Virus record (IMG/VR): IMGVR_UViG_3300006033_000076
Location: 1 to 32,440 of that record
DNA from: a virus
Reading direction: 5' to 3' (one strand)
Length of the DNA: 32,440 nucleotides
Part shown: in pieces, positions 3,625 through 25,345 of the stretch
How positions within the stretch are numbered: the stretch's first letter is position 1
Layout of the letters: every line of letters starts with the position of its first letter
The notes under the pieces: generated by a model
Database searches by the model: none
What the model was told of the DNA's origin: nothing
Seen by the model: the letters and a program-made list of their open reading frames with translations, nothing else
Position numbers and translations under genes: made by a program

Positions 3625-4065
3625 ATGATGAAATCCTTCAAATGTTTGGTTACCTGTTCAACCCTAGCTTTTTTCTCCCTCTGTTCTTCCAATGTTTTTG
3701 GATCCCCGTATACCTGGGAAGTCGTGAGGGTAACGGACGGGGACACGATCGTAGTGAAGGCTCCGTGGATACTCCCTGAACTCGGAACCACTATATCGAT
3801 CCGGGTATACGGAATCGATACCCCTGAGAAAGGGAAGTTGGCGAAGTGTGCTCGAGAAGCTCAGCTGGCTGACTTGGCGAGTGGATACACCAAAGGGTTG
3901 ATCAGGGTTGGGGACACAGTTGATGTTACAAACATTCGGCGCGACAAATACTTCCGACTGCTTGGGTCCGTGTCTGTTGACGGCAAGGATCTTGGCGCTG
4001 CATTAATTGATGCTGGATTCGCCCGTCCATACTACGGGAAGACAAAATCTAATTGGTGTCGTTGA
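3625..4065 (+). CDS. Exported staphylococcal-nuclease-like (thermonuclease) protein
   Basis: A 146-residue protein with an N-terminal signal peptide (basic start, hydrophobic core ending near SSNVFGS, about residue 26) and one complete SNase domain. The family's catalytic features are visible: DGDT (calcium-binding Asp), IRVYGIDTPE (Arg, Asp, Thr and Glu of the active site) and RDKYFRLLG (second Arg). The C-terminal part DLGAALIDAGFARPYYG is also typical. Such enzymes cleave DNA and RNA using calcium. Export suggests action in the periplasm or outside the cell after lysis. ATG 3625 is followed directly by ATG 3628; either could start the protein, and neither has a clear Shine-Dalgarno site. 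Confidence 0.9.
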   Translation: MMKSFKCLVTCSTLAFFSLCSSNVFGSPYTWEVVRVTDGDTIVVKAPWILPELGTTISIRVYGIDTPEKGKLAKCAREAQLADLASGYTKGLIRVGDTVDVTNIRRDKYFRLLGSVSVDGKDLGAALIDAGFARPYYGKTKSNWCR

Positions 4066-4081
4066 CCCTGTAAATTCGCAT

Positions 4082-4127
4082 CATAGTGAGGTGGATATAT
4101 AGAACCACCTTTATCTTCCTCACTATG
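4082..4127 (+). promoter_or_regulatory. Hairpin that contains the start codon of the Asp-box gene
   Basis: CATAGTGAGG at 4082-4091 is perfectly complementary to CCTCACTATG at 4118-4127, giving a 10-pair stem whose last three bases are the ATG start codon. A further TGG/CCA pairing can extend it inside the 26-base loop. No other reason for the complementarity is visible, since the upstream gene ends at 4065. A role in lowering translation until the stem opens is inference. Confidence 0.5.
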
Positions 4128-5144
4128 TTTCTCAAAAAGCTCGCAAAAGCAATTCCTGGCGTTAACTGGTCTGCACCCCTAGCTCTCGCTCAAACCGGAT
4201 GGGGGTACAGCACCATTCGCCACGCAGTTGTTGCAGGTGACACGTTGGTAGTTGTTGGGAGTACAGGACGTGTTGCAACGACGACTGACCGCAATACCTG
4301 GACATACAAACCTGCGCTCCTCGATGGCGGAGCGATCACGTCAGCAGTTGCAGTTGTTTGGACAGGCACCACGCTAACGGTATTTTCATCCAACGGATAT
4401 CTCGCAACCAGCACTGACATGGGAACAACTTGGACGACTCGAATGGAGTTGCAGGCGCTGACAACAGCCAATTCCTTCTTTTCGATCACTGGTGCCATTT
4501 GGGATGGAACTCAGTATGTTGTGACAGGAACATCTGGTCGGATCGTGGTGAGTTCGAACGGTACGGATTGGACACTTCGCGATGGGCTTCGCATCACCGG
4601 GTGGGGTACATCAACTGCAGTACGCACAATCGTCAAGACACCAACAAAGTACCTTGTTGCCGGAACCCAAGGCAAAATTGCGACAAGTACTGACACTGTT
4701 TTGTGGACATACGAGCCACAGCTCGCCACAACTGGATTTGGCGCTACGTCCGTCGTGGACACTATTTGGACAGGTACCGAATTTGCTGTTCTGTCTCAAC
4801 AAGGCAAATTCGCTACCAGCACAGACGGCAGCACATGGACATACTCACCTGGATTGGTTGGGCTGTTGACCAATGCATACTCGATCGCTCGTGTTGGCGA
4901 CAAGTACATTGTTGGTGGGTTGTTTGTTGTATACGACCCACTTGAGCTACCAACAGTTGGGATGGCAACCAGTTCCGATGGTGGTGTTACCTGGGCATCA
5001 ACTCCCAACACTCAAAAGGCGGCAATGAACTACATGACGAAGTATCTCACTGAAGATCGTGGAGCATTGGTTGTGTACAAAGCAGTGCCTGATGGAAATC
5101 GGACATGGTTCCTCGGTAGCTATGGGTGCACACTCACTACTTAA
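4125..5144 (+). CDS. Asp-box (BNR) beta-propeller protein
   Basis: A 339-residue protein built from about six repeats carrying Asp-box motifs (TTTDRNTWTY, TSTDMGTTW, SSNGTDWTL, TSTDTVLWTY, TSTDGSTWTY, TSSDGGVTW), about 40-60 residues apart. This is the pattern of a sialidase-like or Ycf48-like propeller. No sialidase catalytic arginine triad is evident, so binding rather than hydrolysis is more likely. The frame is open from GTG 4086, but ATG 4125 (MFLKKLAKAIPG) is preferred. There is no clear Shine-Dalgarno motif and the start codon lies in a hairpin stem. It is plausibly a virion surface or receptor-binding accessory, judged only from fold and phage context. Confidence 0.75.
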   Translation: MFLKKLAKAIPGVNWSAPLALAQTGWGYSTIRHAVVAGDTLVVVGSTGRVATTTDRNTWTYKPALLDGGAITSAVAVVWTGTTLTVFSSNGYLATSTDMGTTWTTRMELQALTTANSFFSITGAIWDGTQYVVTGTSGRIVVSSNGTDWTLRDGLRITGWGTSTAVRTIVKTPTKYLVAGTQGKIATSTDTVLWTYEPQLATTGFGATSVVDTIWTGTEFAVLSQQGKFATSTDGSTWTYSPGLVGLLTNAYSIARVGDKYIVGGLFVVYDPLELPTVGMATSSDGGVTWASTPNTQKAAMNYMTKYLTEDRGALVVYKAVPDGNRTWFLGSYGCTLTT

Positions 5145-5172
5145 TTTGGGTTGAGCACAAAGTGCTGAATGC

Positions 5173-5203
5173 AGAAAGTGTGACTGGCTCACACTTTCTT
5201 TTT
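5173..5203 (+). terminator. Intrinsic terminator before groES
   Basis: AGAAAGTGTGA at 5173-5183 pairs with TCACACTTTCT at 5189-5199 around a CTGGC loop and runs into a T tract. It lies 28 bases after the stop of the Asp-box gene and only 14 bases before the GroES start, so GroES would be translated from readthrough or from a promoter not visible here. Confidence 0.85.
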
Positions 5204-5217
5204 ATCTGGAACACACT

Positions 5218-5511
5218 ATGCCCCACAACATTCAACCTCTGTACGATTTTATTGCCATTCAAATGGATCCTGCTGAAACAGCCTCCCCTGGTGGGATCGT
5301 GCTGGTGCCAACAAAACAGGACAACACCTCTCAGCAGGGTACTGCAATTGCAGTAGGCCCAGGCGTTGTCGTTGATGGTAAGCGCGAAGCTCCGACTGTG
5401 AAAGTTGGTGACCGAGTGCTCTTCAATCGAGGTACTGGAGCGACAGTCGAAGTGGACAAAGAAAAGTACTTGTTCATTCGCGAGCGTGATTTGATGGGCA
5501 TCATTCGATAA
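5218..5511 (+). CDS. groES: GroES-type co-chaperonin
   Basis: A 97-residue cpn10 protein that caps the GroEL chamber. It begins IQPLYDFIAIQ as GroES does, has the mobile loop with the GroEL-binding tripeptide (PGGIVLVP at about residues 24-31), the AVGPG turn, VKVGDRVLFNRGTGATVEVD and the final strand YLFIRERDLMGII. Its length is that of bacterial GroES. In T4 the phage co-chaperonin gp31 replaces GroES so that GroEL can fold gp23, and a capsid gene of this family lies 4 kb upstream, which suggests the same job. Here the protein is a plain GroES homologue rather than a gp31-like one. The GGA in CTGGAACACACT may serve as its ribosome site. Its stop codon overlaps a late promoter. Confidence 0.95.
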   Translation: MPHNIQPLYDFIAIQMDPAETASPGGIVLVPTKQDNTSQQGTAIAVGPGVVVDGKREAPTVKVGDRVLFNRGTGATVEVDKEKYLFIRERDLMGIIR

Positions 5512-5514
5512 ATA
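5507..5514 (+). promoter_or_regulatory. T4-like late promoter GATAAATA
   Basis: The octamer overlaps the groES stop codon and lies 25 bases before ATG 5540. It matches the late promoter core TATAAATA of T4-like phages at seven of eight positions. Confidence 0.75.
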
Positions 5515-5539
5515 CGAGAAAATCAATCTACTTTACAAA

Positions 5540-5878
5540 ATGCTCTTGTGTCGCACGCGTGGAACTGCTGAGATGCAGCCACAATCAGTTACATATGAAG
5601 CCACGGTGGTGGCGAATCCAATTGGCCAACAAAACGGTTGGTACACTCGTACAGGAAGTTGGACAGAAACGGACCCACTTGCTGTTGTCCGTGAGTGGTA
5701 CGTCGTGTTCAATGGGGTTGTGATCTACAACAACAACACACTGCATCTCAGCGAAACCCCAACGAAGATTGTTGTTGGTAGTGTGGAGTACACACCAGGA
5801 CCATTCCGTGGCCAGTTGTACGGTTGGGGTGGGGACGTCTGCAACACTTTCGACCTTGTTGTCACACAGCTGCAATAA
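5540..5878 (+). CDS. Hypothetical late protein, 112 aa
   Basis: Not recognised. It is a beta-rich, tyrosine- and tryptophan-rich sequence (NGWYTRTGSW, VREWYVVFNGVVIYNN, YTPGPFRGQLYGWGGD) with no membrane segment, like small virion or carbohydrate-binding domains. The start is uncertain. ATG 5540 lies 25 bases after the late promoter, the usual distance here, but has no Shine-Dalgarno motif. ATG 5573 (MQPQSVTYEATV) has GGAA eight bases upstream and would give 101 residues. A bidirectional terminator follows the stop. Confidence 0.65.
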   Translation: MLLCRTRGTAEMQPQSVTYEATVVANPIGQQNGWYTRTGSWTETDPLAVVREWYVVFNGVVIYNNNTLHLSETPTKIVVGSVEYTPGPFRGQLYGWGGDVCNTFDLVVTQLQ

Positions 5879-5902
5879 AAAGGGCCCCTCGGGGCCCTTT
5901 TT
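5877..5902. terminator. Bidirectional terminator between convergent genes
   Basis: GGGCCCC and GGGGCCC form a GC-rich stem flanked by five A on the left and five T on the right, so it works on both strands. It ends the unknown gene at 5540 and the minus-strand PhoH gene, whose stop codon touches it. Confidence 0.92.
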
Positions 5903-6699
5903 CATTCTGCGTATCGTTCCGAGTGGATGATCCACGACTTGACAAATCCGCTTCGAACAATGTCGTCGTGTGTGAATTGCACCACGTCAAATTCCTCCAT
6001 GTCTTGCATGATCCGAAGTCCCATTTGGAACCCACTCACTTCAGTTCCGCGCTTTGAGTGCAGGTCGTTTTGATATCCATCGCCACACAGAATCAGTCGG
6101 GAATTCTGGCCAACGCGAGTGACTACACTTGACAATTCATGAGCATTCAGGTTTTGGAACTCATCGACGATGATGATTGCGTTGTCGAACGTCAGCCCAC
6201 GAACGTGTGAAGTTGTCATGAATCGAACAACACCGGCGTCACACATGTCGCCAAACGTAGACGCGCGACGGAACAAATCTTGGAAGATGTCCACATACGG
6301 GGCACGGTAGACGGCCTCTTTCTCGTCGAGTGTGCCTGGAAGGAAGCCCTGCGAGCGAGTTTCAACTGCACTGCGAATCACGATCAGTTGTTGTTGCTCT
6401 GTGGCGGAATTGAGTACTTCGTTGATTCCAAGGTAGCACGCCATGTAAGTTTTCCCAGTACCTGGAGAACCAACGAGAGCCAGACTGCTGTCGGTGCTCT
6501 GCAACCAACACTCAAACGCCTCTTGCTGACGATCCGTCAATGGAACCACATCTTTGCAATCTCGTTGGGACCAAGTCTTCCGTTTTTGTGTTTCGCGAAG
6601 TTGCGTTGGAGTCTCAACGAGTGTGAGTTGTGGATTTCCACGACTCCGGTGTGTTGGCCTCACGACGCTGGCTCGTGCAGTATTGGATTTACGTCCCAT
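5902..6699 (-). CDS. PhoH-like P-loop ATPase
   Basis: A 265-residue PhoH-family protein. It has Walker A GSPGTGKT at about residues 77-84, the family motif IVIRSAVETRSQGFLPG after it, Walker B IIIVDEFQN at about 174-182 and the sensor-like LILCGDGYQND. The first 50 residues are basic and probably flexible. PhoH-like genes are frequent in marine and freshwater phages; they are predicted ATPases or RNA helicase-like proteins whose role in infection is not settled. The GAAAGA six bases upstream of ATG 6699 is a fair ribosome site. The start overlaps the end of a possible 43-codon ORF on the same strand. Confidence 0.92.
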   Translation of the reverse strand: MGRKSNTARASVVRPTHRSRGNPQLTLVETPTQLRETQKRKTWSQRDCKDVVPLTDRQQEAFECWLQSTDSSLALVGSPGTGKTYMACYLGINEVLNSATEQQQLIVIRSAVETRSQGFLPGTLDEKEAVYRAPYVDIFQDLFRRASTFGDMCDAGVVRFMTTSHVRGLTFDNAIIIVDEFQNLNAHELSSVVTRVGQNSRLILCGDGYQNDLHSKRGTEVSGFQMGLRIMQDMEEFDVVQFTHDDIVRSGFVKSWIIHSERYAE

Positions 6700-6820
6700 G
6701 TGGTTCTTTCAGGTTGGAGAAAATACAGCTGCAAACAGAAAGGGCGACACCACATAAAGCAGTGTCGCCCTCGAATGGGATTGCAGCGAGCTTGGAAAAA
6801 CGCTTTGGTTTAGCAGTCAT
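6689..6820 (-). CDS. Possible small gene upstream of phoH, 43 aa
   Basis: An ATG-started frame (MTAKPKRFSKLAAIPFEG...) runs from 6820 and overlaps the start of the PhoH gene by 11 bases. It begins 31 bases downstream of the minus-strand CATAAATA motif at 6852-6859, close to the spacing of other late genes here. It has a basic N-terminus and a cysteine-containing middle. Against it: there is no Shine-Dalgarno motif and a perfect 10-pair hairpin runs through its codons, so it may instead be an untranslated leader. Confidence 0.3.
   Translation of the reverse strand: MTAKPKRFSKLAAIPFEGDTALCGVALSVCSCIFSNLKEPHGT
6741..6771 (-). terminator. Perfect hairpin upstream of phoH, possible terminator or leader element
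   Basis: AGGGCGACAC at 6741-6750 pairs with GTGTCGCCCT at 6762-6771 around an 11-base loop. Read on the minus strand the stem is followed by TTCTGTTT, a weak terminator tail. It would stop transcripts from the small-gene operon at 7798-6851, or modulate entry into the PhoH gene. Confidence 0.45.
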
Positions 6821-6850
6821 TGATGTGACGGCAATTCAAATTGGTCAAAG

Positions 6851-7120
6851 TTATTTATGGTCGTCTGAATTTGGGGTACTATCCAATTCGACCCACACCT
6901 TGTCGTTGACGTGGTGCACCTCACCATCATCGATCTCCGCGGTCCATAGTTGAAGGGGACACTCTGACCCTCGGAGCCGCACTTTGAGGGGGATTATGCA
7001 CCCACATTGAGTACACAGGTGGAACACAGACTTGTGTGCACTATGTGGGCAATTCTCACACACAGCCAGTCGATGTGCGATTGTCCGTTCAGTTGAAAAC
7101 ATACTACTCACGAGTGGCAT
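6851..7120 (-). CDS. Small zinc-ribbon protein, DUF6171-like
   Basis: An 89-residue protein with the spacing C-x2-C ... C-x2-C-G-C ... CP ... W (CENCPHSAHK, CTQCGCIIPLKVRLRG, CPLQLW). This pattern, ending in a CP-x-W element, recurs in small phage proteins and fits a zinc ribbon holding one or two metal ions. Function is unknown; such proteins may bind nucleic acid or a partner protein. The ribosome site is strong: GGAAGGA eight bases before ATG 7120. It follows the preceding minus-strand gene by four bases, so the three genes from 7798 downward form one operon. Confidence 0.75.
   Translation of the reverse strand: MPLVSSMFSTERTIAHRLAVCENCPHSAHKSVFHLCTQCGCIIPLKVRLRGSECPLQLWTAEIDDGEVHHVNDKVWVELDSTPNSDDHK
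6852..6859 (-). promoter_or_regulatory. T4-like late promoter CATAAATA, minus strand
   Basis: The motif overlaps the stop codon of the zinc-binding gene at 6851..7120 and points toward PhoH. ATAAATA is exact. The nearest ATG downstream is at 6820, then PhoH at 6699. Confidence 0.5.
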
Positions 7121-7124
7121 GTGC

Positions 7125-7403
7125 TTATCCTTCCACAGTGATGGGGATCTTCCTGTAAGTTAGGATCTGGTTGGCTAATGAAAATGATGAAGCAGCCGCT
7201 GAACGAAGAAGAGCCATCTCAGCTGCGGTCACTACAACGGTTGTTGGTGTCACTCGGTAGTTGTTGGCAAATCGATCGAATGCAGTTACCATCGATCCAG
7301 CAGGATCTTCTGGGTGAATGGTGTACGGGGCGGAGTTCAACACTGTTTGGTTGCTTCGACCTCCACAACATGACGCGTGGTTGTATTTGAATTTGAAGTG
7401 CAT
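7125..7403 (-). CDS. Hypothetical protein, 92 aa
   Basis: Not recognised. The visible parts are a short basic N-terminus with a CCGG motif and a C-terminal helical segment (AAEMALLRSAAASSFSLANQI). There is no membrane segment. Its ATG overlaps the TAA of the preceding gene by one base (TAATG), which suggests translational coupling, and it ends four bases before the zinc-ribbon gene. Confidence 0.65.
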   Translation of the reverse strand: MHFKFKYNHASCCGGRSNQTVLNSAPYTIHPEDPAGSMVTAFDRFANNYRVTPTTVVVTAAEMALLRSAAASSFSLANQILTYRKIPITVEG

Positions 7404-7798
7404 TATCGGAGACTGTCGTGGATAGATTTCAACTGAGCAACCAGTGCTTTCTGCTCTCCCTGGGGGAGCTTGTCGAGTTTTCCTAGTTTGGTGAGCAGTG
7501 TTGTCTGCATCGACGGAAGTCGCGCACCTGCTGTCATCACATGATGAGCAGCAGCTTTGTTGCTCGTCAGCTGTGCTAGGATTTTTCGATATGTGGCGTC
7601 GTCAATTTCAACCGATTTGCGAAAAGTCGGCTTGGATAGTACGTACAACCCAGTGACAATGGTTGCTATTTTTTCACGGAGTTGTTTCTTTGCGCCAGAA
7701 ATTTCAGCTGGTTTTGACATGATCAATCCAGCAATTTTGTCCAAATATACCATTGCTTGGTTGGACTGAGTCTGCTCGAGTAGGGTGCGAAGTTTCAC
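7403..7798 (-). CDS. Hypothetical helical protein, first gene of a minus-strand operon, 131 aa
   Basis: Not recognised; mostly helical and Lys/Gln/Leu-rich (KLRTLLEQTQSNQ, KKQLREKIATIVTGLYVLSK, LLTKLGKLDKLPQGEQK). The frame is open up to 7921, but the longer versions would begin upstream of the minus-strand late promoter at 7821-7828 and overlap the divergent neck gene. GTG 7798 is chosen because it lies 22 bases after that promoter, has AGGA six bases upstream and avoids the overlap. The C-terminal end is coupled to the next gene. Confidence 0.7.
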   Translation of the reverse strand: MKLRTLLEQTQSNQAMVYLDKIAGLIMSKPAEISGAKKQLREKIATIVTGLYVLSKPTFRKSVEIDDATYRKILAQLTSNKAAAHHVMTAGARLPSMQTTLLTKLGKLDKLPQGEQKALVAQLKSIHDSLR

Positions 7799-7820
7799 GA
7801 CAGTCCTGCAGTAGGTTCCG

Positions 7821-7828
7821 TATTTATC
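7821..7828 (-). promoter_or_regulatory. T4-like late promoter GATAAATA, minus strand
   Basis: TATTTATC on the plus strand reads GATAAATA on the minus strand, 22 bases before the GTG start at 7798. It lies 11 bases from the plus-strand late promoter at 7840, making a divergent pair. Confidence 0.75.
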
Positions 7829-7839
7829 GCACATCTGCT

Positions 7840-7847
7840 GATAAATA
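7840..7847 (+). promoter_or_regulatory. T4-like late promoter GATAAATA before the neck gene
   Basis: It lies 21 bases before ATG 7869. The leader between them (CACGCGCTCAACACAACA region) has no Shine-Dalgarno motif. Confidence 0.78.
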
Positions 7848-7868
7848 ACCCACGCGCTCAACACAACA

Positions 7869-10733
7869 ATGACATCGACCACATTCTTTGATGCTCCAGG
7901 TGGAATCCGAAAAGAAGGCAATTCTCAAACTCTGACGTTCACTCGTACGTCGGATACCACAGGTACGTTGTGCTGGGCTCCAACTCCTCCAACCCCATCA
8001 ACTGGATGTGGCACACCAAGTGGACATTACAGTGGGGGGCTGTTGGTTGGCAGCACGTCTCCTATCGAACAACCCAACAAACCAACGGACGGTGTCTGCT
8101 GCTACAAAGGGGATCCGACGTTCGACCCACTGGCATTTGCGGGAGACATGCTCGGAAATGCTCGTGTATTGTGGAGCAGCAACACTGACACGAAAACTGG
8201 TTGTGTTACTGTTGACGGCTTGGATGCAAAATGCACTGCGTACTATTTTGCATTCTTCGCGATCGACAACGTATGTCGATACAACCAAGATGGGATTTAC
8301 AGTTACTCGCTGAACCACGGTGGTCCGAAGATTGAGTGTGTCTCTGGATCGCAAACCATCCTCACAAATGGAGCCGACCTAACAAGCGAGATCCCAGCCA
8401 CAGTCGATCGTCTAATCAACTATCCGGTTACGATGGTCGTAGATGGTAAGCCCCTCGAGCTGGTGCTCCGTGGGAGTGAACTCACCACATACCAGAGCGC
8501 AATCGATGAGCTAACCTCTGCGTGGAAACACATCGTTCCACCACTAGAGTCAGAGTATCCTCCATTCTACGGTCAGTTTCTCCAACTTGGTGAGCGTTGG
8601 TACCAGCACAATGGTGTGAAGTACAACGAAGTGTTTCCGAAGCTACAGAGCACAGATCCCACATTGGCGATTGACGGGGATCTGTGGTTTGACACTACCG
8701 CACGAGTACTGCGGGAATTTACAATCGCTCTGGGGTGGTCACAGGTTGAACCAGTCATCACCCATCCAACAGACCCAACGATTGTTGCCAACGAAGAGAT
8801 GTGGTTTGACGGCACAACGGTGAGGTGGTTTGATGGTGCTGTTTGGGTACCAGTAACCGCCGTATACTCCCAATCGACTGACCCCAAACTTGCTCCCACT
8901 CTGACGGGGACCACGGTGTGGAAGCGTGATGGAGAGTTCCTTAGATGGAACACATCACGCAACAAATGGATCCCTGCAACTGCGCTTGTGTATGCAGGGG
9001 ACCTAGCAGCGATCCCCAACGGCACGCTGTGGTTCGATCTATCGGGCAACGCGCTCCGGATGTGGAATGGAGTTGACTGGATTGCCCAGGCAGCCACAGT
9101 TGCAACGCAGGCACCAATTAACCCCACACTGAATCAAGTTTGGGTAGATCCAGTTGCCCGTGTTGTTCGACGTTACAACCCACTGATCCCTCAGTGGGAG
9201 ACGATCTCTGCAACTTTCTATCACAAACAGCTCGACATTGAAGCAGCTGGTGACCTACATTATGATCCAGTCGCTGAGACGCTGGCGATTTACGATGCGA
9301 TGACTCTGTCGTGGGTGGACATCACATCGACTCTGTTTGCCACGGCGTTGGATCCATCTCTTCCACCCACGATTCCGCTCGACGCTGTGTGGTTCAACAC
9401 CACACATTCCTTGTGGTTCATCAATTCTGAGTGTGGTTGGGAGGGGACGCAGGAGGTCATCCACAGTGCTGTGGACCCAAGGACCATCACAACTGGGTTC
9501 TGGTTCAATTCAGCAACGCAACTGTGGTATGAACGAGATGGCTTGTTGTGGACAGCATTGAACCCAACCATCTCAGCAATTGACCCAACTATTCCAACAC
9601 TTGGGTCAACGTGGTTTGATGGGGTGACGCTGTATCAACGGTCTACACCAACAGACTGGACTGCTGTCCCATTTGAGACGACTCCGTCTGTTGTTGATGT
9701 TGGGGCACGATGGTTGGACAACGCTGGAACGCTGCACGTTTGGACAGGAACCCAATGGGACACTGTGACGCCACCATACACTGTTGCCACAACAGAGACT
9801 GACAACATTGTGATTACTTCTGCATTTTGTGGAAGTGGGTCATACATCGACATCACTAAGGAAACGCTATTCTCCGCTCTGCGGTTCACGCTCTGCACTC
9901 CACGCCAAGGAAATGACGGTACATCTGGGGTTCCAATGTACGACGAGTTGGGAGTGGGTACAGACGGGTCTGTTGACGAACGCCGAAAGATCATTGACAA
10001 TCTGTACATGCGACTTGGTGCACCAACCATCAATGTTGAGTTGACGCGGGATCAGATGGATCTTGCTGTGCAACGAGGGTTGGACTACATCCGACGCGAC
10101 TCGGGTGCTGGCTACAACCGAGGGTATTTCTTCTTGGACCTCCAAGCTGGACAGCAGAAGTATGTGCTCACTAGCAAGGCAGTTGGCTTCCATAAGATCG
10201 TTGACGTGCTGTATCTTTACCGTCCACGTGGTGGATTCCTCAACTCTACATTTGGTGGTGAAATCTACGGACAGCAGTTGATGCAACAACTGTATGTTTC
10301 GGGGACGTTCGACATCCTTTCGTACCATCTGTTGGCTAGCTACCAGACAGTGGTTGCTAAGTTGTTTGCGTCGGAATTTCAATTTCAGTGGGTTGAGCGC
10401 ACACGAACGCTAACCATTATGCGGAAGATCCCCCGCGCTGAACGAATCCTTGTCGATGCCGTCATTGAACGAACAGAACAGGATTTGTTGACAGACCGCA
10501 CCACCAAAAATTGGATCGAGAACTGGGCTCTCACTGAAGCAAAGATCATGTTGGGGGACATGCGTGGCAAGTACGCCACACTGCCAGGGGCTGGTGGTGC
10601 TGTGACGCTCAACGCGAGTGAATTGAAAACTGAGGCTGTTGCGCTCCAGGAAAAGTTGGTGCGGGAGCTGGACGACTACATGGCGTCGGATGTTGAAACC
10701 TGGGGGCTTGGTGGCACAATTGCCAAGGGATAA
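7869..10733 (+). CDS. Neck (gp13-like) protein with a large adhesin-like N-terminal extension
   Basis: A 954-residue protein with three parts. Residues about 20-165 resemble a cysteine-containing fibronectin type III domain (VDGLDAKCTAYYFAFFAID). Residues about 260-632 hold roughly ten tandem repeats of 30-45 residues with the pattern DPT...LWFD.....L..W.g..W.pv (for example GDLWFDTTARVL, EEMWFDGTTVRWFDG, GTLWFDLSGNALRMWNG). From about residue 700 the sequence follows the T4 gp13 family (IIDNLYMRLGAPTINVELTR, YVLTSKAVGFHKIVDVL, LLASYQTVVAKLF, ENWALTEAKIMLGDMRGKY). T4 gp13 is about 309 residues and closes the filled head as part of the neck. The next gene follows by three bases. The repeats most likely make a fibre-like or carbohydrate-binding projection at the collar, which is inference. 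Confidence 0.82.
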   Translation: MTSTTFFDAPGGIRKEGNSQTLTFTRTSDTTGTLCWAPTPPTPSTGCGTPSGHYSGGLLVGSTSPIEQPNKPTDGVCCYKGDPTFDPLAFAGDMLGNARVLWSSNTDTKTGCVTVDGLDAKCTAYYFAFFAIDNVCRYNQDGIYSYSLNHGGPKIECVSGSQTILTNGADLTSEIPATVDRLINYPVTMVVDGKPLELVLRGSELTTYQSAIDELTSAWKHIVPPLESEYPPFYGQFLQLGERWYQHNGVKYNEVFPKLQSTDPTLAIDGDLWFDTTARVLREFTIALGWSQVEPVITHPTDPTIVANEEMWFDGTTVRWFDGAVWVPVTAVYSQSTDPKLAPTLTGTTVWKRDGEFLRWNTSRNKWIPATALVYAGDLAAIPNGTLWFDLSGNALRMWNGVDWIAQAATVATQAPINPTLNQVWVDPVARVVRRYNPLIPQWETISATFYHKQLDIEAAGDLHYDPVAETLAIYDAMTLSWVDITSTLFATALDPSLPPTIPLDAVWFNTTHSLWFINSECGWEGTQEVIHSAVDPRTITTGFWFNSATQLWYERDGLLWTALNPTISAIDPTIPTLGSTWFDGVTLYQRSTPTDWTAVPFETTPSVVDVGARWLDNAGTLHVWTGTQWDTVTPPYTVATTETDNIVITSAFCGSGSYIDITKETLFSALRFTLCTPRQGNDGTSGVPMYDELGVGTDGSVDERRKIIDNLYMRLGAPTINVELTRDQMDLAVQRGLDYIRRDSGAGYNRGYFFLDLQAGQQKYVLTSKAVGFHKIVDVLYLYRPRGGFLNSTFGGEIYGQQLMQQLYVSGTFDILSYHLLASYQTVVAKLFASEFQFQWVERTRTLTIMRKIPRAERILVDAVIERTEQDLLTDRTTKNWIENWALTEAKIMLGDMRGKYATLPGAGGAVTLNASELKTEAVALQEKLVRELDDYMASDVETWGLGGTIAKG

Positions 10734-10736
10734 ACC

Positions 10737-12500
10737 ATGAGCATTTTTCTTGACCCATCTGTGGATCGAGTGGTGTTGCCAAACACCACTACAACGATTC
10801 CATCACCAAAGAACACCTGCGAGCCCGTGACAGATACGTGTGGGACCTGTAAGCCACTGCCACATCTTCAGCAGCCAACGTGTGATACCAGTAACCCTGG
10901 CTGTATCATCCTGACCCCCGCTGGCGTGCAGCTTCCGGAGGGTGACAACTCCAGTTGTTCTAGCTTCCAGTTACAAAAGCAGACAGCAGACAATGCGTAC
11001 ATCAATGCTCTTGCCAATGAAAACTTGAATCTTGGTGGTGCAGATGCGTGTTTCTACAAACTACTTGGTGTCCAACAGCAGGGAACGCTAGTAGACGCCG
11101 CTGGTGGTGGGAAAGCGATCAGTAGTGACTCGCTTGCTGATTTTCCTCCGGACAACGCGTTTGACAGATTTGCAAGCTACTGGATGTCGTGTGCTTCGGG
11201 TCAAGGCGTATTGCAGAGTTGGATTGGGTATGACTTTGGATTGTTGAAGCACGCCTCTGGGCTACCAATGTATTCAACAGAAGCCAACGCACAGTCACGC
11301 AAGCACATTACAGCACTTGCAGTCAAACAGGGTGGCGACTCGTCAAATTGGGTATCTCGCATTCGGGTCGAGCGAAGTGACAATGGGGTACAGTGGCGAG
11401 GAGTCGATGTCGTTGATTTGCCGCAGACAGCAGAGCGTGTACAGATCCACATCAAACAGAGTGTGCCATCGAGAATGTGGCGCATCCGACCCATCGACAC
11501 AAAATCGACAGGAGATTGGAAAGTTGAAACGCTGGAGTTGTTTGAGTTCGCAATCACAGATTTGAACTACCTCCAAGAATCACCATTGTTTCAAGAGAAT
11601 CGTGATCGCTCGTACTGCATTAACCCAGTGAAGATCAAGATTTTTTACGACCTCGTCAACATTAGCACTGAGTTGTCGCGTTTTGGTATTGATCTGCCAA
11701 CAGCAACCATGACAATTGCTGTGAACTTTTCTGAAGCAGTGAAGCAGTTGGGACGGGGTGTGATCATTGGAGACGTCATTGAAATTCCAAGCGAAATGCA
11801 GTTCACTGCCGACATGAAGATTGTCCGGAAGTTTGTCGAGGTGTCGGATGTGACGTGGTCAACCAAAGGTTACACCCCTGGTTGGACTCCGCTGTTTCAA
11901 CAAATCACAGCAAAACCAATGCTCGCTCGTCAAGAGGTTCTCGACATCGTTGGATCGCTCGAGGCTGATCTTGGAGAGGATGGCACTGGATACAGATCCG
12001 ATGATCTGTTGTTCTCAGATATGGCACTTCGAGTCAATGAGCAGATACAAATTGCAGCAGATGAAATGCTTCCTCAGATGGGGCAAGATGCTGGGTTTGT
12101 TGCTGATGTGACGGAGATCCCAACACCCCAGATAGAAGCAGCGGCTGATCTTGGATTGAACCTAGCGAAGCTCACGACGACCTACACAGATTCGATTCGA
12201 GGGGAATCTCCCACAATGCGAACAGGAATGCCACCGTCTGGTACCGCTCCTGAAATGTTCACTACTGGGGACCATAGCGTTGGATTTCCGCAGAATCCAA
12301 AGAATGGGCAATACCATCGGATGTCGTATGAGTCTCTCACTACTGAGAAAATCCCACCCAAGTTGTATCGATACAGCTTGGCCAAAACACGGTGGATTTT
12401 CATGGAGAGTGACGAGCGATTCGAAACTCAGACTGGAAAGAATCGGTTGAAGTCGTACATGGTGTCTGAAGACAAAACCGACCTACACAACATGAGATAA
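10737..12500 (+). CDS. Neck protein (gp14-like) carrying a discoidin domain
   Basis: A 587-residue protein. The N-terminus is cysteine-rich (NTCEPVTDTCGTCKPL). Residues about 105-273 match the F5/8 type C (discoidin) fold: DNAFDRFASYWMS, SWIGYDFG, RKHITALAV, RVERSDNGVQWRGVDVVDL, RMWRIRPI and a final strand VETLELFEF. Residues about 285-400 resemble T4-like gp14 neck proteins (KIFYDLVNISTELSRFGIDL, GDVIEIPSEMQ, KIVRKFVEVSDVTW). The tail is long and variable. Gene order after the gp13-like gene and before the gp15-like gene supports gp14. Discoidin domains usually bind sugars or lipids on surfaces. AAGGGA seven bases before the ATG is a good ribosome site. Confidence 0.72.
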   Translation: MSIFLDPSVDRVVLPNTTTTIPSPKNTCEPVTDTCGTCKPLPHLQQPTCDTSNPGCIILTPAGVQLPEGDNSSCSSFQLQKQTADNAYINALANENLNLGGADACFYKLLGVQQQGTLVDAAGGGKAISSDSLADFPPDNAFDRFASYWMSCASGQGVLQSWIGYDFGLLKHASGLPMYSTEANAQSRKHITALAVKQGGDSSNWVSRIRVERSDNGVQWRGVDVVDLPQTAERVQIHIKQSVPSRMWRIRPIDTKSTGDWKVETLELFEFAITDLNYLQESPLFQENRDRSYCINPVKIKIFYDLVNISTELSRFGIDLPTATMTIAVNFSEAVKQLGRGVIIGDVIEIPSEMQFTADMKIVRKFVEVSDVTWSTKGYTPGWTPLFQQITAKPMLARQEVLDIVGSLEADLGEDGTGYRSDDLLFSDMALRVNEQIQIAADEMLPQMGQDAGFVADVTEIPTPQIEAAADLGLNLAKLTTTYTDSIRGESPTMRTGMPPSGTAPEMFTTGDHSVGFPQNPKNGQYHRMSYESLTTEKIPPKLYRYSLAKTRWIFMESDERFETQTGKNRLKSYMVSEDKTDLHNMR

Positions 12501-12503
12501 ATA
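12496..12503 (+). promoter_or_regulatory. T4-like late promoter GATAAATA before the tail completion gene
   Basis: It overlaps the stop of the gp14-like gene and lies 20 bases before ATG 12524. No Shine-Dalgarno motif lies between them. Confidence 0.78.
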
Positions 12504-12523
12504 GTCGACTCGCCAACCTCACC

Positions 12524-13300
12524 ATGAAGACACAACCATATTTTTACAGTCAGCAGATTGAGCGTTACCTCATTCAATTTGCCAATGTATTTTCTGGGTT
12601 CCAAGTGAAGGTTGGGATTGGTGAGAAGGAACAGATGGTTTCTGTTCCCATCATGTACGGAAGCATCGACAAGGTGGTTGCATCAATTGATGCGGGGAAT
12701 ACTCAGAATCGCCCCATCAGACTCCCGATGATGTCGACCCACATGACATCGATTGGACTTGCTGCTGAGTTGCGACATGGAGTGGGGCAAGAGGATCGGT
12801 TTTCATACCTCCAGTCTGGTGGCGTGATCCCAACTGATGTTCGGGTGCTGCATCGATACATGCCAATTCCATACAAGCTCACTTGTGAGGTGTATACCTA
12901 CTGCAGTAACCAAATCCAACAACTGCAATTGCTTGAGCAAATTCTCGTCTTGTTTGACCCATCGATGGTGATCCAAACAACAGATTCGACGTTTGATTGG
13001 ACCAAACTCACGTCTGTTGAGTTGACGGATGTGTCACTCGAAGAAAATATTCCAAGTGGAGATGCAGACCGGTTGATTGTCAGCAAGTTGACGTTTGAGT
13101 TCCCTGTTTGGATTACCCCACCTGCGAAGTCGAAGACTGATTTTGTGGAATCGATTGTGATTCGGTTGGCTGATTTGAATGAGTTGATCGACAACGCTGA
13201 AAACTTCTTCAATGGCTCCACAGAGATTGATAACGGGGTCACCAGTAAGTCGGTTCAGGTTGTTCAATACACCCCTACTGAGCCTCCTGAACCACGCTGA
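12524..13300 (+). CDS. Tail completion / sheath stabiliser protein, gp15-like
   Basis: A 258-residue protein of the T4-like gp15 family, which caps the top of the tail and joins it to the neck. Recognisable blocks are YFYSQQIERYLIQFANVFSG, VPIMYGSIDKVVASI, RYMPIPYKLTCEVYTYCSN, QLQLLEQILVLFDPSMVIQT and LTFEFPVWITPPAKSK, in the order and spacing of cyanophage gp15 proteins. Length is close to T4 gp15 (272 residues). The start is supported by the late promoter 20 bases upstream; the leader lacks a Shine-Dalgarno motif. Position after the two neck genes fits the T4 order 13-14-15. The last 26 bases overlap the end of a minus-strand ORF. Confidence 0.88.
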   Translation: MKTQPYFYSQQIERYLIQFANVFSGFQVKVGIGEKEQMVSVPIMYGSIDKVVASIDAGNTQNRPIRLPMMSTHMTSIGLAAELRHGVGQEDRFSYLQSGGVIPTDVRVLHRYMPIPYKLTCEVYTYCSNQIQQLQLLEQILVLFDPSMVIQTTDSTFDWTKLTSVELTDVSLEENIPSGDADRLIVSKLTFEFPVWITPPAKSKTDFVESIVIRLADLNELIDNAENFFNGSTEIDNGVTSKSVQVVQYTPTEPPEPR

Positions 13301-13589
13301 TGTGTGGGCAGCTCTTGCTGCAGAATTTGTTGTATCGATTTGTGTGGGAGTTGAATGCTGTGAAGCTCCCACACTTGACACAGCCAGGTGGGGCCTCCAA
13401 TTCGTGCAGCATGCAATACACAGCTTCGCGGATATCGTCATTGCACCAACTGTAGTAATCCAAAAATTCCCTGTATAGCTTGTGGACGCGCCCTGCGTAG
13501 AACTCCCACTTGGGGTTTAGCACCACCCCGCGAGAGGTGACGAGTAGTAGACGTTCGTTAATGAGGAGCTGTTTGTACGTTGAATGCAT
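13275..13589 (-). CDS. Zinc-finger ORF, probable homing endonuclease remnant
   Basis: A 104-residue minus-strand frame lying between the tail completion and sheath genes. The C-terminal part has C-x2-C ... C-x3-C (CVKCGSFTAFN, RYNKFCSKSCP), and the block before it (REAVYCMLHELEAPPG) resembles the N-terminal recognition module that precedes the nuclease in many phage homing endonucleases. No nuclease motif remains. The frame is open from GTG 13601; ATG 13589 is chosen, with AGG 11 bases upstream. Its opposite strand and its position between conserved late genes suit a mobile gene or its relic. It could also be a functional small zinc protein. Confidence 0.55.
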   Translation of the reverse strand: MHSTYKQLLINERLLLVTSRGVVLNPKWEFYAGRVHKLYREFLDYYSWCNDDIREAVYCMLHELEAPPGCVKCGSFTAFNSHTNRYNKFCSKSCPHISVVQEAQ

Positions 13590-13618
13590 CGAAAGCGGCA
13601 CCTAAAACATCGAGGGTC

Positions 13619-13626
13619 AATAAATA
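13619..13626 (+). promoter_or_regulatory. T4-like late promoter AATAAATA before the sheath gene
   Basis: It lies 26 bases before ATG 13653, and an AAGGA ribosome site lies between them, so promoter, leader and start agree. It rules out the upstream ATG at 13584 as the start. Confidence 0.8.
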
Positions 13627-13652
13627 AGGAGACAGCCTACAAGGATACACAA

Positions 13653-15785
13653 ATGGCATCTCTAGTTTCTCCTGGCGTAACAACACAACTCATCGACGAA
13701 TCGATGTATGTTCCAAGTGTTGCTGACACCGTTCCTCTGATTTTCATTGCAACCCAACAAGACAAACTGCAAACTGATGGTGTGCAAACTGCGTTGGGAA
13801 CGATCGAGCACAGCACTGTGCGCACAGTCACCTCACTCAAGCAGAGTCTTGAGTTGTACGGAGCGCCAAGTTTCCTCCGCACTGCAACGGGTCGCGATCT
13901 CCATGGTGATGCACGAAACGAAGTGGGTTTGTTTGCCCTGAACCGTTTCCTCGGAATTGGCAGCTTGGCGTATGTTGTTCGTGCCAACGTGAACTTGGAC
14001 GACTCTTACACATCCACCTCCAACCGTTGGATCACCAAGACAACTGCCGCTGCGTCTGAATTGCAGGCTCTGGCTGACGCATATCTGAACACCTACAACG
14101 TCCAGAATGGGTTCTCCCCCGCCGACGCTGGATATCGTTCGACGATCAACGCCACTGAGATGAACCTGTTTGCTCGTCAAGTGATGAGCCCGATTTTCGC
14201 TGATGTGACATTCGCCAATGCTGAATTTGACTTCTACGATGACAACGCCACTCCTGCACTGAGCACATCTGGCTACCAAGCGATCGACATGAACGCTGGT
14301 ATCACCGCAACGTCACTCCCCACAGGGCTGGCCGACACTGCTCAGATCTACTCGGCAATTGTTGCTGTGGATGGTGTGTCACGTGCTGTTGCTTTCACAG
14401 GCAATGTTGCACAGACGTTTGCTGACTTCATCACTCAAGTGAATGCAAAGTTGGCTGGTGTTGCCACGATCACTGTGTCGGGTGGAAACCTGCAAATCAC
14501 TGCATCATCTGTTGGCAGCAACAGTGTTGTGTCGATTGTGGATTCGAACCTGTTCAACAGCCTGACTGGTTTTGTGCAACTTCTGCAACCCATCGCTGGA
14601 ACGACCGCCGATGCAGCAGTGAACATGTATGAGAATGGATTCAACCAACCCGCAACCAATACATACGCTGGCTTCGATGGAATGGTTACCATCTGGTCTA
14701 CATCAAGCCCTGGTCCTGGCACCGGCGCAATCGACACTCAGTGGACACCGTACGAAGCTGGTCAGAGCCTGTTGGACATGGCGACAGACTACACGTTCAC
14801 TCAGGAATTCCTGAACAAGACAAGTCTGGGTTCTTACGATGCTGCTCGTCGTCTGACCATCGTTCGTGCACTGCAGGCAGCTGTCAACAGCAATACGGAA
14901 GTTCGTTCTGAACTGTATGAATACAACTTGATCGTTTGCCCAGGTTTCCCTGAAGTAACGGATGAGTTGGTGACGCTGTGTGAGGACATCGGTGAAGAGG
15001 CATTCGTGATCTCCGATACCCCATACACTGTGAACCCAGAGAACGCTGTGAACTGGGCAACTCCTGGTGTTGTGAATGCATCGTCTCCCGACTCGCTGCA
15101 TCAAGTGAACCGGAACGTCGCATACTACTACCCACACGGGATCAGCTCGAACGTGGATGGTCGTGATGTGTTTATTCCAGCATCTGCAATTGCACTCCGC
15201 ACGTATGCATACAGTGACCGCGAATCAGAAGTGTGGTGGGCTCCTGCTGGTCCACGTCGTGGCCAAGTGACTGGAGTGACTCGCGTTGGGTATCTGACTG
15301 GTGTGTTGGGTGAACCTACCACATTCGTTGACGTGGCTTTGAACAAAGGGCAGCGTGATGCGCTGTACAACTTCCCGCGGAACGTGAACCCGATTGTGAA
15401 CATGCCCGGCCGTGGAATCTTGGTGTTCGGTCAGAAGACTTCTGTTGGCCTGAACGCGTCTGCTCTGGACCGCATCAACGTGGCTCGCTTGTGTGCTCAC
15501 ATTCGTCGTCAGGCTCGGAAAATTGCGTTTGGGTTCTTGTTTGAACCAAACGACCAGATCACACGCGACAACCTGAAGTCGGCGATCGACGGAATGCTGA
15601 ACTCGATCCTGTCGAAGCGTGGTCTTGTGGACTTCTTGACAATCTGTGATGCATACAACAACCCCCCAGAGGTTGTCGATCGTAACGAGATTGTGTGTGA
15701 TGTTGGTATCGTCCCAATGAAGGTTGGTGAATTTATCTACATCCCAATTCGTGTCCACCCACAGGGCACGAACCTGACAGCATGA
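13653..15785 (+). CDS. Tail sheath protein, gp18-like
   Basis: A 710-residue contractile sheath protein. It begins MASLVSPGVTTQLIDESMYV as T4-like sheaths do, continues with DTVPLIFIATQ and the block LFALNRFLGIGSLAYVVRAN, and ends with the conserved assembly domain (ARLCAHIRRQARKIAFGFLF, NDQITRDNLKSAIDGMLNSI, CDAYNNPPEVVDRNEIVCDV, EFIYIPIRVHPQG). Residues about 210-318 form an insertion (TFADFITQVNAKLAG, TISVGGN-like strands, LFNSLTGFVQL) that resembles the IN motif of flagellar hook proteins and would face outward. The start has an AAGGA ribosome site and a late promoter. Codons are biased to common ones, as for the capsid gene. T4 gp18 is 659 residues. Confidence 0.95.
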   Translation: MASLVSPGVTTQLIDESMYVPSVADTVPLIFIATQQDKLQTDGVQTALGTIEHSTVRTVTSLKQSLELYGAPSFLRTATGRDLHGDARNEVGLFALNRFLGIGSLAYVVRANVNLDDSYTSTSNRWITKTTAAASELQALADAYLNTYNVQNGFSPADAGYRSTINATEMNLFARQVMSPIFADVTFANAEFDFYDDNATPALSTSGYQAIDMNAGITATSLPTGLADTAQIYSAIVAVDGVSRAVAFTGNVAQTFADFITQVNAKLAGVATITVSGGNLQITASSVGSNSVVSIVDSNLFNSLTGFVQLLQPIAGTTADAAVNMYENGFNQPATNTYAGFDGMVTIWSTSSPGPGTGAIDTQWTPYEAGQSLLDMATDYTFTQEFLNKTSLGSYDAARRLTIVRALQAAVNSNTEVRSELYEYNLIVCPGFPEVTDELVTLCEDIGEEAFVISDTPYTVNPENAVNWATPGVVNASSPDSLHQVNRNVAYYYPHGISSNVDGRDVFIPASAIALRTYAYSDRESEVWWAPAGPRRGQVTGVTRVGYLTGVLGEPTTFVDVALNKGQRDALYNFPRNVNPIVNMPGRGILVFGQKTSVGLNASALDRINVARLCAHIRRQARKIAFGFLFEPNDQITRDNLKSAIDGMLNSILSKRGLVDFLTICDAYNNPPEVVDRNEIVCDVGIVPMKVGEFIYIPIRVHPQGTNLTA

Positions 15786-16173: not shown

Positions 16174-17799
16174 TTACAGATTGTATGCTGTTGGAGGGGT
16201 AAATGCCTCGGTGTACCGAGCCGCTTTTGTGACCCTGAATGCATCAATCTTTCCAGTAAACATTTGGTTCGGAGCACCACTCACGTTCCGACCACCCAAC
16301 AGAATTGGATTTGTCGTACTGGCAAATGTTGCGGACGTTGTCACTGATCCAACGGGTTGTCCGTGGTAGAACCAAGTGATGGTGTTGCCATTGCGAACGA
16401 TGGCGTAGTGCCGCCACACTCCAGCTGGCGCTGTGGTAGTGAATGCTCTTTGGTTGATGATGTTGTACTGAGCAGAGCCATCCCCCATATAGAGGATCAC
16501 TGATTGGTTGACCACGTATATTAGGAATAGTTCCTGCAGATGTGTGTTGATTGTTTGGCACAGTACTGTCTTACCAACCAAGTTGGCGCCAGCGGTGATG
16601 TTGATGTACAACTCAATCGTGAAGTTTCCATTCCCCAATCCGAGTGAAGAGTCTGATCCAACTTGAACAATCGTCGATCCGTTGAACACACCACTTGCGT
16701 TCCCCATCGCATAATCGGTCGTGCTTGTTGTCAGTGCGCCAGTCCATTGGTTCACAATTCGACCAGTCAAATCACTGAGTGGGGCGGTGCTGTTGAAAGG
16801 CACCAACGCTTCCACATGCAGTGCATATGGGTCCGTAGATTGATAACTTGGGAAGCGACGACGTGGTGCTGTGAAATTTGATGTGTAGCGAGCAACTCCA
16901 GTTGTGATTCGCAACTCATCCATGTACCCAATGAATGGTTCACTGACGTCGTTTATTGCTCCAATTTCTGTTCTCGTTGCCCCAGCCAACGTACCCGTCA
17001 ATGTCGCTGTTGCGACCTGTGACCCATTTCGCCAAATACTGAACGTGTTACCATTTCGGGTGAGTGCAACGTGATACCATGTGTTGACGTTGATCACATT
17101 GGCGCTTGTCGTCAATGTACCGAGGCTGCTTTCGAATTGCAGTTGCCGTGTTGGTGTTGATCGGAACAGGAAATCCGAGTTTGACCGAATAAATTCTGTG
17201 TATGCGCTGGTGTTTGTTGGGTAGATCCACATTTCCACCGTGAAGTCGCCAGAACCAAAGTTCAGCAAATCCTCCATGCACTTCACAGAATACCCGCTGA
17301 AGTACCCCGACTTGCCAAATTTTGCAGGGGATGAACTGTATGACACCCCATTGTTGATGAATGTCCGTGATGGGTTGCGCTTGTCGAGGATCTCATCGTC
17401 GAATGTTAGGTGCGTTGACACATTGGTCCAATATGGATCACCCAACTCAACCGCATCTACAAATACCTCTGTCACGGAAGTGTCGTTAATTCCAATCGAC
17501 AGCGACCCCAATCCACCATCGAGAGATAGTGTTGCTGTCTCAGCGCCTTCTGTTGTTAGGTCTGCTGTTGCTGTGAGTGTAACGGCGCCAACGCCACCAA
17601 CGATTGTGAACACTCCAGTCAATGCAGCACCGCCAATGTCTGCAGATGAAATTCCTGTGATTGTGTATGGAACAGTTGTCCCATCATCGACCCCGGTTGT
17701 TGTGAGAGTAAAGGTAAATTGCGTTCCTTCATCCACGGCTGCCGCGCTTCTCGACAGTGTGTATGTTGTAGTTGTTCGCTTTACGAAATAAAGAAACAT
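16174..17799 (-). CDS. Calx-beta-like plus double LamG lectin-like protein
   Basis: A 541-residue beta-rich protein. Residues about 20-110 look like a Calx-beta or related Ig-like domain (AAAVDEGTQFTFTLTTTG, GVDDGTTVPYTITGISSADI, GAETATLSL). Two concanavalin-like LamG_3 domains follow at about 130-305 and 330-535, each with the marks HLTFDD / FNGSTIVQVG, GDFTVEMWIYP / GNFTIELYIN, WYHVALTRNGNTFSIWRNG / WRHYAIVRNGNTITWFYHGQ, and IGYMDELRITTGVARYTSNF / TGKIDAFRVTKAARYTEAF. These domains bind sugars or proteins, so it is probably a virion adhesin or decoration protein. A late promoter lies 21 bases before ATG 17799. It is encoded opposite its neighbours, between two terminator or promoter boundaries, as a movable cassette would be. 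Confidence 0.85.
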   Translation of the reverse strand: MFLYFVKRTTTTYTLSRSAAAVDEGTQFTFTLTTTGVDDGTTVPYTITGISSADIGGAALTGVFTIVGGVGAVTLTATADLTTEGAETATLSLDGGLGSLSIGINDTSVTEVFVDAVELGDPYWTNVSTHLTFDDEILDKRNPSRTFINNGVSYSSSPAKFGKSGYFSGYSVKCMEDLLNFGSGDFTVEMWIYPTNTSAYTEFIRSNSDFLFRSTPTRQLQFESSLGTLTTSANVINVNTWYHVALTRNGNTFSIWRNGSQVATATLTGTLAGATRTEIGAINDVSEPFIGYMDELRITTGVARYTSNFTAPRRRFPSYQSTDPYALHVEALVPFNSTAPLSDLTGRIVNQWTGALTTSTTDYAMGNASGVFNGSTIVQVGSDSSLGLGNGNFTIELYINITAGANLVGKTVLCQTINTHLQELFLIYVVNQSVILYMGDGSAQYNIINQRAFTTTAPAGVWRHYAIVRNGNTITWFYHGQPVGSVTTSATFASTTNPILLGGRNVSGAPNQMFTGKIDAFRVTKAARYTEAFTPPTAYNL

Positions 17800-24319: not shown

Positions 24320-24331
24320 CTGGAGAGTGTG

Positions 24332-25345
24332 TTGAAAATTGCGATATACACCATTGCTAAAAACGAAACCAGCAATGTAGTTAGTTGGCATAACAGCAAT
24401 CGTGACGCTGACTACCACCTAGTTTGTGATACGGGGTCTACCGATAACACTGTGGATGCGCTTCGTGCTGCTGGGATCACCGTTGTCCCAATCACGGTTG
24501 ATCCGTGGAGGTTTGACGTTGCTCGCGGATGTGCTCTGAATCTGCTCCCTGCGGACATTGACATCTGCATCTGGCAGGATCTTGATGAACAGCTCCTCCC
24601 AGACTGGCGAGAAAATCTCGTTCGACATTGGACTCCCGAAACAACAACAGCCTTCCACCGATACAAAAATAACGACAACCCTTGGCAGTGGCACAGTAAG
24701 ATCCATGCCCGCCATGGCTGTACGTGGACTGGAATCGTCCACGAAACGCTATCGTGGCACATTCCTCAACACACGATCTGGCTACATGACGTGTGGCTCC
24801 GTGAATTTCAAGATGTGACAAAAGATCGCTCAAAGTACCTCCAAATGCTGGTGCAGAAGGTTGCTGAGGGAGATCGTGACTGGAAAACGTACTACTTTCT
24901 TGCGAACGAGTACCAATCCACCGACTTCAACAAATCGGTCCAATATCGGGAGCAGAGCTTCGATCTCTGCATGGACGGTCCAATCGCGAAGAGCTACATC
25001 GCACGCACATTGGCAGTGCAGTATGGGACTTGGGGCCAAGATGCTCTAGCTGAGCGTTGGTTTCAAACCAGCATTTCAATTTCAAATGAACGTGAGTCGT
25101 GGTACCACCGAGCGATGTTTTACAAACGCCGTGAGCAGTGGGACTTTTGTTTACTTGCTGTCATTCGGTGCACAGAAGTGACAGCACAGCGCGACGGGTA
25201 TACGTTCGATCCCGATGCTTGGTCGCCCAAGTTGTATGAGTGTGGAATCGAAGCAGCGACTGCAACGGGGATGTTGCACCATATTCCAAGATTTCAAACC
25301 GAGATCGATAAACTGTTCATCGAGTCTCGAGGAGTGGCAGCATGA
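24332..25345 (+). CDS. GT2-family glycosyltransferase with helical repeat tail
   Basis: A 337-residue enzyme. The N-terminal half is a GT-A fold: IAIYTIAKNET, VCDTGSTDNTVDAL (nucleotide-sugar site), WRFDVARGCAL and the metal-binding DxD within IWQDLDEQLLPDW. A pair of histidine-containing segments (HARHGCTWTGIVHETL) follows. The C-terminal half is TPR-like (YYFLANEYQSTDFNKSVQY, LAERWFQTSISISNE, WYHRAMFYKRREQWDF). Such enzymes move sugars onto glycans or proteins. GGAG at 24322-24325 suits TTG 24332 (six-base gap) better than GTG 24329 (three bases), so TTG is chosen. The stop overlaps the start of the next, related gene. Confidence 0.86.
   Translation: MKIAIYTIAKNETSNVVSWHNSNRDADYHLVCDTGSTDNTVDALRAAGITVVPITVDPWRFDVARGCALNLLPADIDICIWQDLDEQLLPDWRENLVRHWTPETTTAFHRYKNNDNPWQWHSKIHARHGCTWTGIVHETLSWHIPQHTIWLHDVWLREFQDVTKDRSKYLQMLVQKVAEGDRDWKTYYFLANEYQSTDFNKSVQYREQSFDLCMDGPIAKSYIARTLAVQYGTWGQDALAERWFQTSISISNERESWYHRAMFYKRREQWDFCLLAVIRCTEVTAQRDGYTFDPDAWSPKLYECGIEAATATGMLHHIPRFQTEIDKLFIESRGVAA

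Follow-up and report, generated by a model that had tools for sequence, protein, structure and literature searches.

The gene at positions 7869-10733 (+ strand) of this viral DNA encodes a 954-aa gp13-type neck protein, or head-tail adaptor (hereafter P0001), with an N-terminal arm of ~700 residues, and it raises the question of why a subunit that in phage T4 has 309 aa and no such arm should be enlarged in this way, and of what the added mass would do at the neck of the virion.

Genomic Context of the Neck Genes

The window, by which we mean the whole 32,440-nt stretch of DNA that was analyzed, comes from the genome of a jumbo myophage related to T4 and RaK2. It encodes a Gp23-type major capsid protein (106-1428, + strand; PF07068, E 1.3e-86), a gp15 tail sheath stabilizer (12524-13300, + strand; PF16724, E 5e-36), which served as the syntenic anchor and whose best PHROG match is a family named tail sheath, and a tail sheath (13584-15785, + strand; PHROG and Pfam matches), and these are surrounded by genes for DNA polymerase, PhoH, and tRNAs. 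The neck genes follow the order gp13-gp14-gp15 as in T4, a single gene lying between P0001 and gp15. Beside the tail sheath gene, but encoded on the other strand, is a 541-aa protein with two laminin-G/concanavalin-like domains (16174-17799, - strand; Pfam E 1.3e-33). Further along the window, two tandem genes at 24329-26454 each match phrog_13126 (beta-1,4-glycosyltransferase; E 4.8e-52 and 1.1e-100), and a glutathionylspermidine-synthase-like phage gene is found at 27623-28846 (phrog_6215, E 3.5e-116).

The C-Terminal Domain of P0001 Is a T4-Type gp13

Residues ~701-950 of P0001 are a true T4 gp13/head-tail adaptor domain (core, residues 701-954; 9969-10730, + strand). The initial annotation had likened the C-terminus to T4 gp13 and proposed a profile search of this part, which placed it inside the gp13 family, with the domain starting near residue 701. 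A family profile of the C-terminal domain matched T4 gp13 (PDB 9mkb, 9lu4) at E 4.5e-20, the runner-up in the PDB reaching 0.096, and hhalign aligned the core with T4 gp13 at 99% over 236 columns (T4 residues 5-299). Structure comparison gave the same result, T4 gp13 being the best PDB match of the predicted P0001 structure in Foldseek (6.5e-11) and matching the model in VIA with a Z of 13.8 (9lu4_A). Like its T4 homologue, P0001 precedes the gp14 position and gp15.

The only PHROG family matched by P0001 was PHROG 211, "head-tail adaptor Ad2", with an E-value of 5.7e-112 across residues 4-939; a search with just the gp13 core still gave 7.9e-53. The profile of this family has 976 positions, and T4 gp13 matches only its end (positions 721-959), showing that short and long forms already share one family in the database; the long form is thus filed under a head-tail adaptor name, with the arm itself drawing no comment in the papers found.

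With domain borders taken from the T4 structure paper (PMC12270204), the core consists of a helix bundle (residues 701-747 and 875-943), a swing domain (748-866), and an adaptor loop (~902-916). This gp14-binding loop is retained before the last helix, and R899, G900, K901, L905, P906, G907, G910, and N915 in its region are invariant or nearly so. T4 gp13 also has a fibritin-binding domain III (T4 residues 190-239), which in P0001 has shrunk to ~8 residues. The armless gp13s of other jumbo phages are likewise too short to hold domain III, so its loss is not tied to the arm; domain III is a T4-type feature that is not common to all members of PHROG 211.

Tryptophan-Rich Repeats and the Remainder of the Arm

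Residues 259-636 of the arm (8643-9776, + strand) are made up of ten W-rich units, each about 38 aa long, recognized by autocorrelation, by profile, and in the predicted model. Within residues 250-640 lie 25 of the 33 tryptophans of P0001, and the autocorrelation at a lag of 39 has a z of 4.35. A profile built from the ten units recovered all ten in P0001 and scored 8.6-151 bits on 34 other repeat-bearing relatives; its maximum on 720 locally shuffled sequences was 6.8 bits, and it scored -1.7 bits on a short gp13 (L068). The shuffle control rules out the repeats as an effect of composition or chance, and the count of ten tryptophan-rich repeats given in the initial annotation was confirmed. 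In three relatives (L040, L050, and L052) approximately two additional units are present in the middle of the array, so that the number of units ranges from 10 to about 12. Searches of P0001 and its relatives for a Pfam family covering the repeat returned sub-threshold matches only (OCRE, DUF2510), and the ten-unit array gave weak Foldseek matches to several beta-propellers at very low TM-scores.

An AlphaFold2 model of P0001 was computed from 36 sequences and has a pTM of 0.35, which makes the arrangement of its domains unreliable. The W-rich units were nevertheless predicted with a pLDDT of 80-91, each with 3-4 short strands.

At the N-terminus, residues 12-148 (7902-8312, + strand) were modeled as a beta-sandwich of lower pLDDT than the repeats (~30-75). 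The sequence preceding gp13 had been described as FnIII-like, a description that we retain as tentative for these residues: the model matches FnIII domains with a Z of 7.8 (VIA), but within a low-confidence stretch, and the Pfam fn3 family has no match in P0001 and reaches E 0.012-0.28 in relatives. Between sandwich and core, the model suggests a single domain with the ten units as an insertion in one of its loops; the possible first half of this domain comprises residues 155-235 (8331-8573, + strand) and the possible second half residues 637-688 (9777-9932, + strand). This suggestion draws on the pattern of strands and helices and on VIA, which treated the model range 155-685 as one domain and matched it to a baseplate chain of phage E217 (8env_A; Z 9.6, 112 residues). 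With the spliced halves of six relatives as queries, nothing significant was found among the named Pfam families. The sequence of this putative split domain may have a flagellin-IN-like look. If the repeats are indeed inserted, the array would begin and end at one place, which would favor a hairpin or a closed ring over a simple rod.

When the whole P0001 model was compared with BFVD, Foldseek returned, beyond gp13s, collagen-like proteins from the giant viruses Orpheovirus, Fadolivirus, and Hokovirus at low TM-scores; beta modules of the W-rich type may be widespread among fibrous proteins.

The Long Form Is Conserved and Forms One Clade

The full layout of P0001 recurs at about 31% identity in the cultured phages XacN1 (ORF268, BBA65416; 977 aa) and RAS14 (a Stenotrophomonas phage; WAX21693; 976 aa), both annotated as hypothetical only, as well as in CM1. 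It is also found in more than 30 IMG/VR contigs of environmental jumbo phages, the longest reaching 340 kb. Misassembly of the P0001 fusion is ruled out by this recurrence. Arm and gp13 form a single unbroken frame in dozens of lineages, and the full-length proteins are of near-constant length (954-1063 aa). No relatives of P0001 were found in a scan of bacterial and archaeal genome contigs.

The closest short gp13s, stand-alone proteins of about 250-266 aa with no arm, belong to the jumbo myophages RaK2, PA5oct, GAP32, PBECO4, SCTP-2, and Atu_ph07, and such a form is also present in Vibrio phage 2.275.O. When a tree was built from gp13 domains, the long forms fell on one side of one branch (support 93/98); T4 is a very long branch in this tree, and the root is uncertain. 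In addition, the Ralstonia jumbo phage RsoM2USA is reported to have a neck protein of 494 aa (ORF401), assigned by neck-protein homology (PMC8504454), which is half the length of P0001 and perhaps carries a shorter arm.

Comparison of P0001 with a relative (L003) showed 81% identity in gp13 and 74% in the FnIII-like part, falling to 39% in the repeats and 35-42% in the split domain; in nearly all other pairs as well, the repeats and the split domain were less conserved than gp13. Such rapid change, as read from these alignments, would fit surface exposure of the repeats, although a spacer would look alike.

A Discoidin-Like Domain at the gp14 Position

Between P0001 and gp15 lies a gene for a 587-aa protein (P0002; 10737-12500, + strand) with a core common to virion structural proteins of RaK2, PA5oct, and Atu_ph07 (phrog_11591). 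Its residues 117-274 (11085-11558, + strand) have the jelly-roll fold of an F5/8 type C (discoidin)/CBM32-like domain (VIA Z 15.8; Foldseek 4.2e-7). The Pfam match of this domain in P0002 (PF00754, 6.2e-5) is below the curated cut-off, and the XacN1 homologue scores above it. In the RaK2, PA5oct, and Atu_ph07 homologues the match to P0002 is confined to its C-terminal half, starting at about residue 255, whereas the discoidin-like domain is present in 23 of 23 aligned neighbors of long-form genes, so that the arm and a discoidin-bearing neighbor occur together.

The remainder of P0002, a virion core at residues 281-560 (11577-12416, + strand), is possibly gp14-like, on homologue matches and a weak hhalign comparison with T4 gp14 (probability 17%, 81 columns). 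In RaK2 and PA5oct the gene for the P0002 homologue is followed by a gene annotated as tail sheath. No gp14-type PHROG matched P0002 (T4 gp14 itself matches phrog_679 and phrog_460), and the canonical gp14 family phrog_460 was absent elsewhere in four long-form genomes. As the profile comparison was too weak to make P0002 a proven gp14, we keep the assignment positional. At the same position in a 340-kb relative (L033, 8944-11907) is a protein of 987 aa with C-terminal DUF285 repeats (Pfam E 1.2e-56), another case of an extended neck protein.

Possible Role of the Arm in the Virion

T4 gp13 forms a dodecameric ring under the portal (PMC12270204). In four long-form genomes, those of XacN1 and RAS14 and two large partial IMG/VR contigs, the gp13 domain is single-copy, so every ring subunit should carry an arm. 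If the ring of these phages is likewise 12-fold, there would be twelve arms per virion, ~75 kDa each and ~0.9 MDa together, arranged around the neck. P0001 is best read as the gp13 (neck 1) subunit of this T4/RaK2-related phage, with ~690 N-terminal residues that would form a permanent appendage composed of the FnIII-like sandwich and the possible split domain with the ten W-rich beta modules in its loop. With its CBM32/discoidin domain, the protein at the gp14 position would add to this stack of rings, and the presence of a CBM-type domain in the product of the next gene lends more weight to a decorated collar. We consider it somewhat probable that the ring subunits build a permanent external collar that binds glycans and/or the phage's own stalk proteins. 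Its contacts, with host-surface or environmental glycans or with fiber-type proteins of the phage, would be of low affinity, and the collar would do the job of separate whisker fibers with parts built into the ring. Of the earlier proposal that each gp13 copy bears a long projection, creating an adhesive collar, the fusion in one frame and the single gp13 per genome checked support the first element, but that the projection stands free and is adhesive we only infer.

A stronger form of this reading, which we regard as doubtful, is that the neck of XacN1-type phages serves, besides the baseplate, as a receptor-binding platform, on which the gp13 arms together with the CBM32/discoidin domain at the gp14 position (joined by DUF285 in one phage) would hold the virion on glycans of the cell surface or matrix. 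Under either form of the reading it is relevant that tail fibers of XacN1 were absent by electron microscopy and that no tail-fiber homologues were reported (PMC5852040), which is compatible with a host-contact role for the neck without proving it. However, RsoM2USA, of one clade with XacN1, possesses tail fibers (PMC8504454), so a lack of fibers does not explain the arm across the group.

The arm and the discoidin-type domain could, as an alternative, pack on the neck, the portal vertex, or the top of the sheath as structural armor that stiffens the joint between a very large head and its tail and binds nothing outside the virion. Phages Milano and 7-7-1 have a sheath-like, beta-rich collar around the neck (PMC10491603, PMC12796354), and the near-constant length of the long-form proteins would suit such a part, as would an array with both ends at one place, should the repeats really be a domain insertion. 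We nonetheless judge this explanation unlikely, because conservation is lowest in the repeats and the split domain, the number of units varies, the neighboring P0002 domain has a CBM32-like fold, and related jumbo phages of similarly large genome lack the arm.

The W-rich array could also be a docking scaffold, a socket for separate fiber proteins, in the manner in which T4 whiskers retain the long tail fibers. This idea arises because single W-rich modules are present in the N-terminal part of stalk proteins of XacN1 and RAS14. These proteins (phrog_15511) form clusters of six paralogues in each phage, at 4049-13105 of a piece of XacN1 (L091; 120000-140000) and at 4370-13047 of a piece of RAS14 (L092; 190000-206000); each has a conserved N-terminal part with one module, a Thr/Pro-rich stalk, and a variable C-terminal end. 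They resemble fiber proteins and may be fibers that were missed by the searches of the XacN1 authors. Strong phrog_15511 matches were found in 4 of 8 other long-form contigs. A shared module does not demonstrate contact, however, and the two contigs nearest the window, both of them fragments, have no phrog_15511 match; we consider the docking scaffold unlikely. Binding of glycans and docking of stalk proteins could both hold, and these readings overlap with the external collar.

Cleavage of the arm before or during assembly, after a chaperone or scaffold role, with the gp13 core alone entering the virion, had been named at the outset as an objection to a projecting collar and is highly improbable: a low-confidence linker is present in the model at residues 686-700, but no T4-prohead-protease-like site ([LIVF]xE[AGS], a motif of T4 specificity that may differ in these phages) was found between arm and gp13, the sole match being inside a gp13 helix at 888, the T4 neck is joined on after packaging (PMC12270204), and short relatives assemble without such an arm.

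Relation to Known Neck Appendages

The external collar that we favor would resemble the whiskers of T4, the neck fibers of A-1(L), the spikes of XM1, and the collar of Milano in lying on or around the neck ring (PMC10966104, PMC10491603). All of these, like every neck appendage known so far, are proteins in their own right that attach to the ring, whereas the appendage of P0001 is part of the ring subunit. The carbohydrate-binding module of the A-1(L) neck fiber did not bind its host (PMC10966104), and the neck collar of Milano seems to be structural (PMC10491603). T4 has a separate fibritin gene; in contrast, T4-type fibritin (phrog_1056) was not detected in XacN1, RAS14, or the two large partial relatives, the T4 positive control scoring 1.3e-207. 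This is compatible with the view of the initial annotation that the collar would stand in place of fibritin whiskers, but the loss of domain III, shared with armless phages, does not add to it.

No enlarged gp13 of the arm-bearing kind is described, and no comment on the arm made, in the literature that we searched, outside which most subscription papers lie; the text of the XacN1 paper makes no mention of ORF268 (PMC5852040), and no virion imaging or mass spectrometry of a long-form protein was found. A large external structure of a previously undescribed kind is probably present on the neck of these phages. If so, a ring subunit three to four times larger than usual, together with a domain of sugar-binding type on the protein at the gp14 position, would represent an alternative principle of collar construction and possibly a second site of host contact, built into the ring proteins. 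XacN1 is a phage studied for biocontrol, and the long-form lineage is widespread in environmental samples. Complete genomes are available for cultured members, and cryo-EM should reveal the extra mass of a 12-fold set of arms.

The enlargement of neck proteins may extend to other lineages. In Synechococcus phage S-BM1 (L096), the gp14 annotation starts at position 85 and spans 1464 nt, far more than the 256-aa gp14 of T4 would need.
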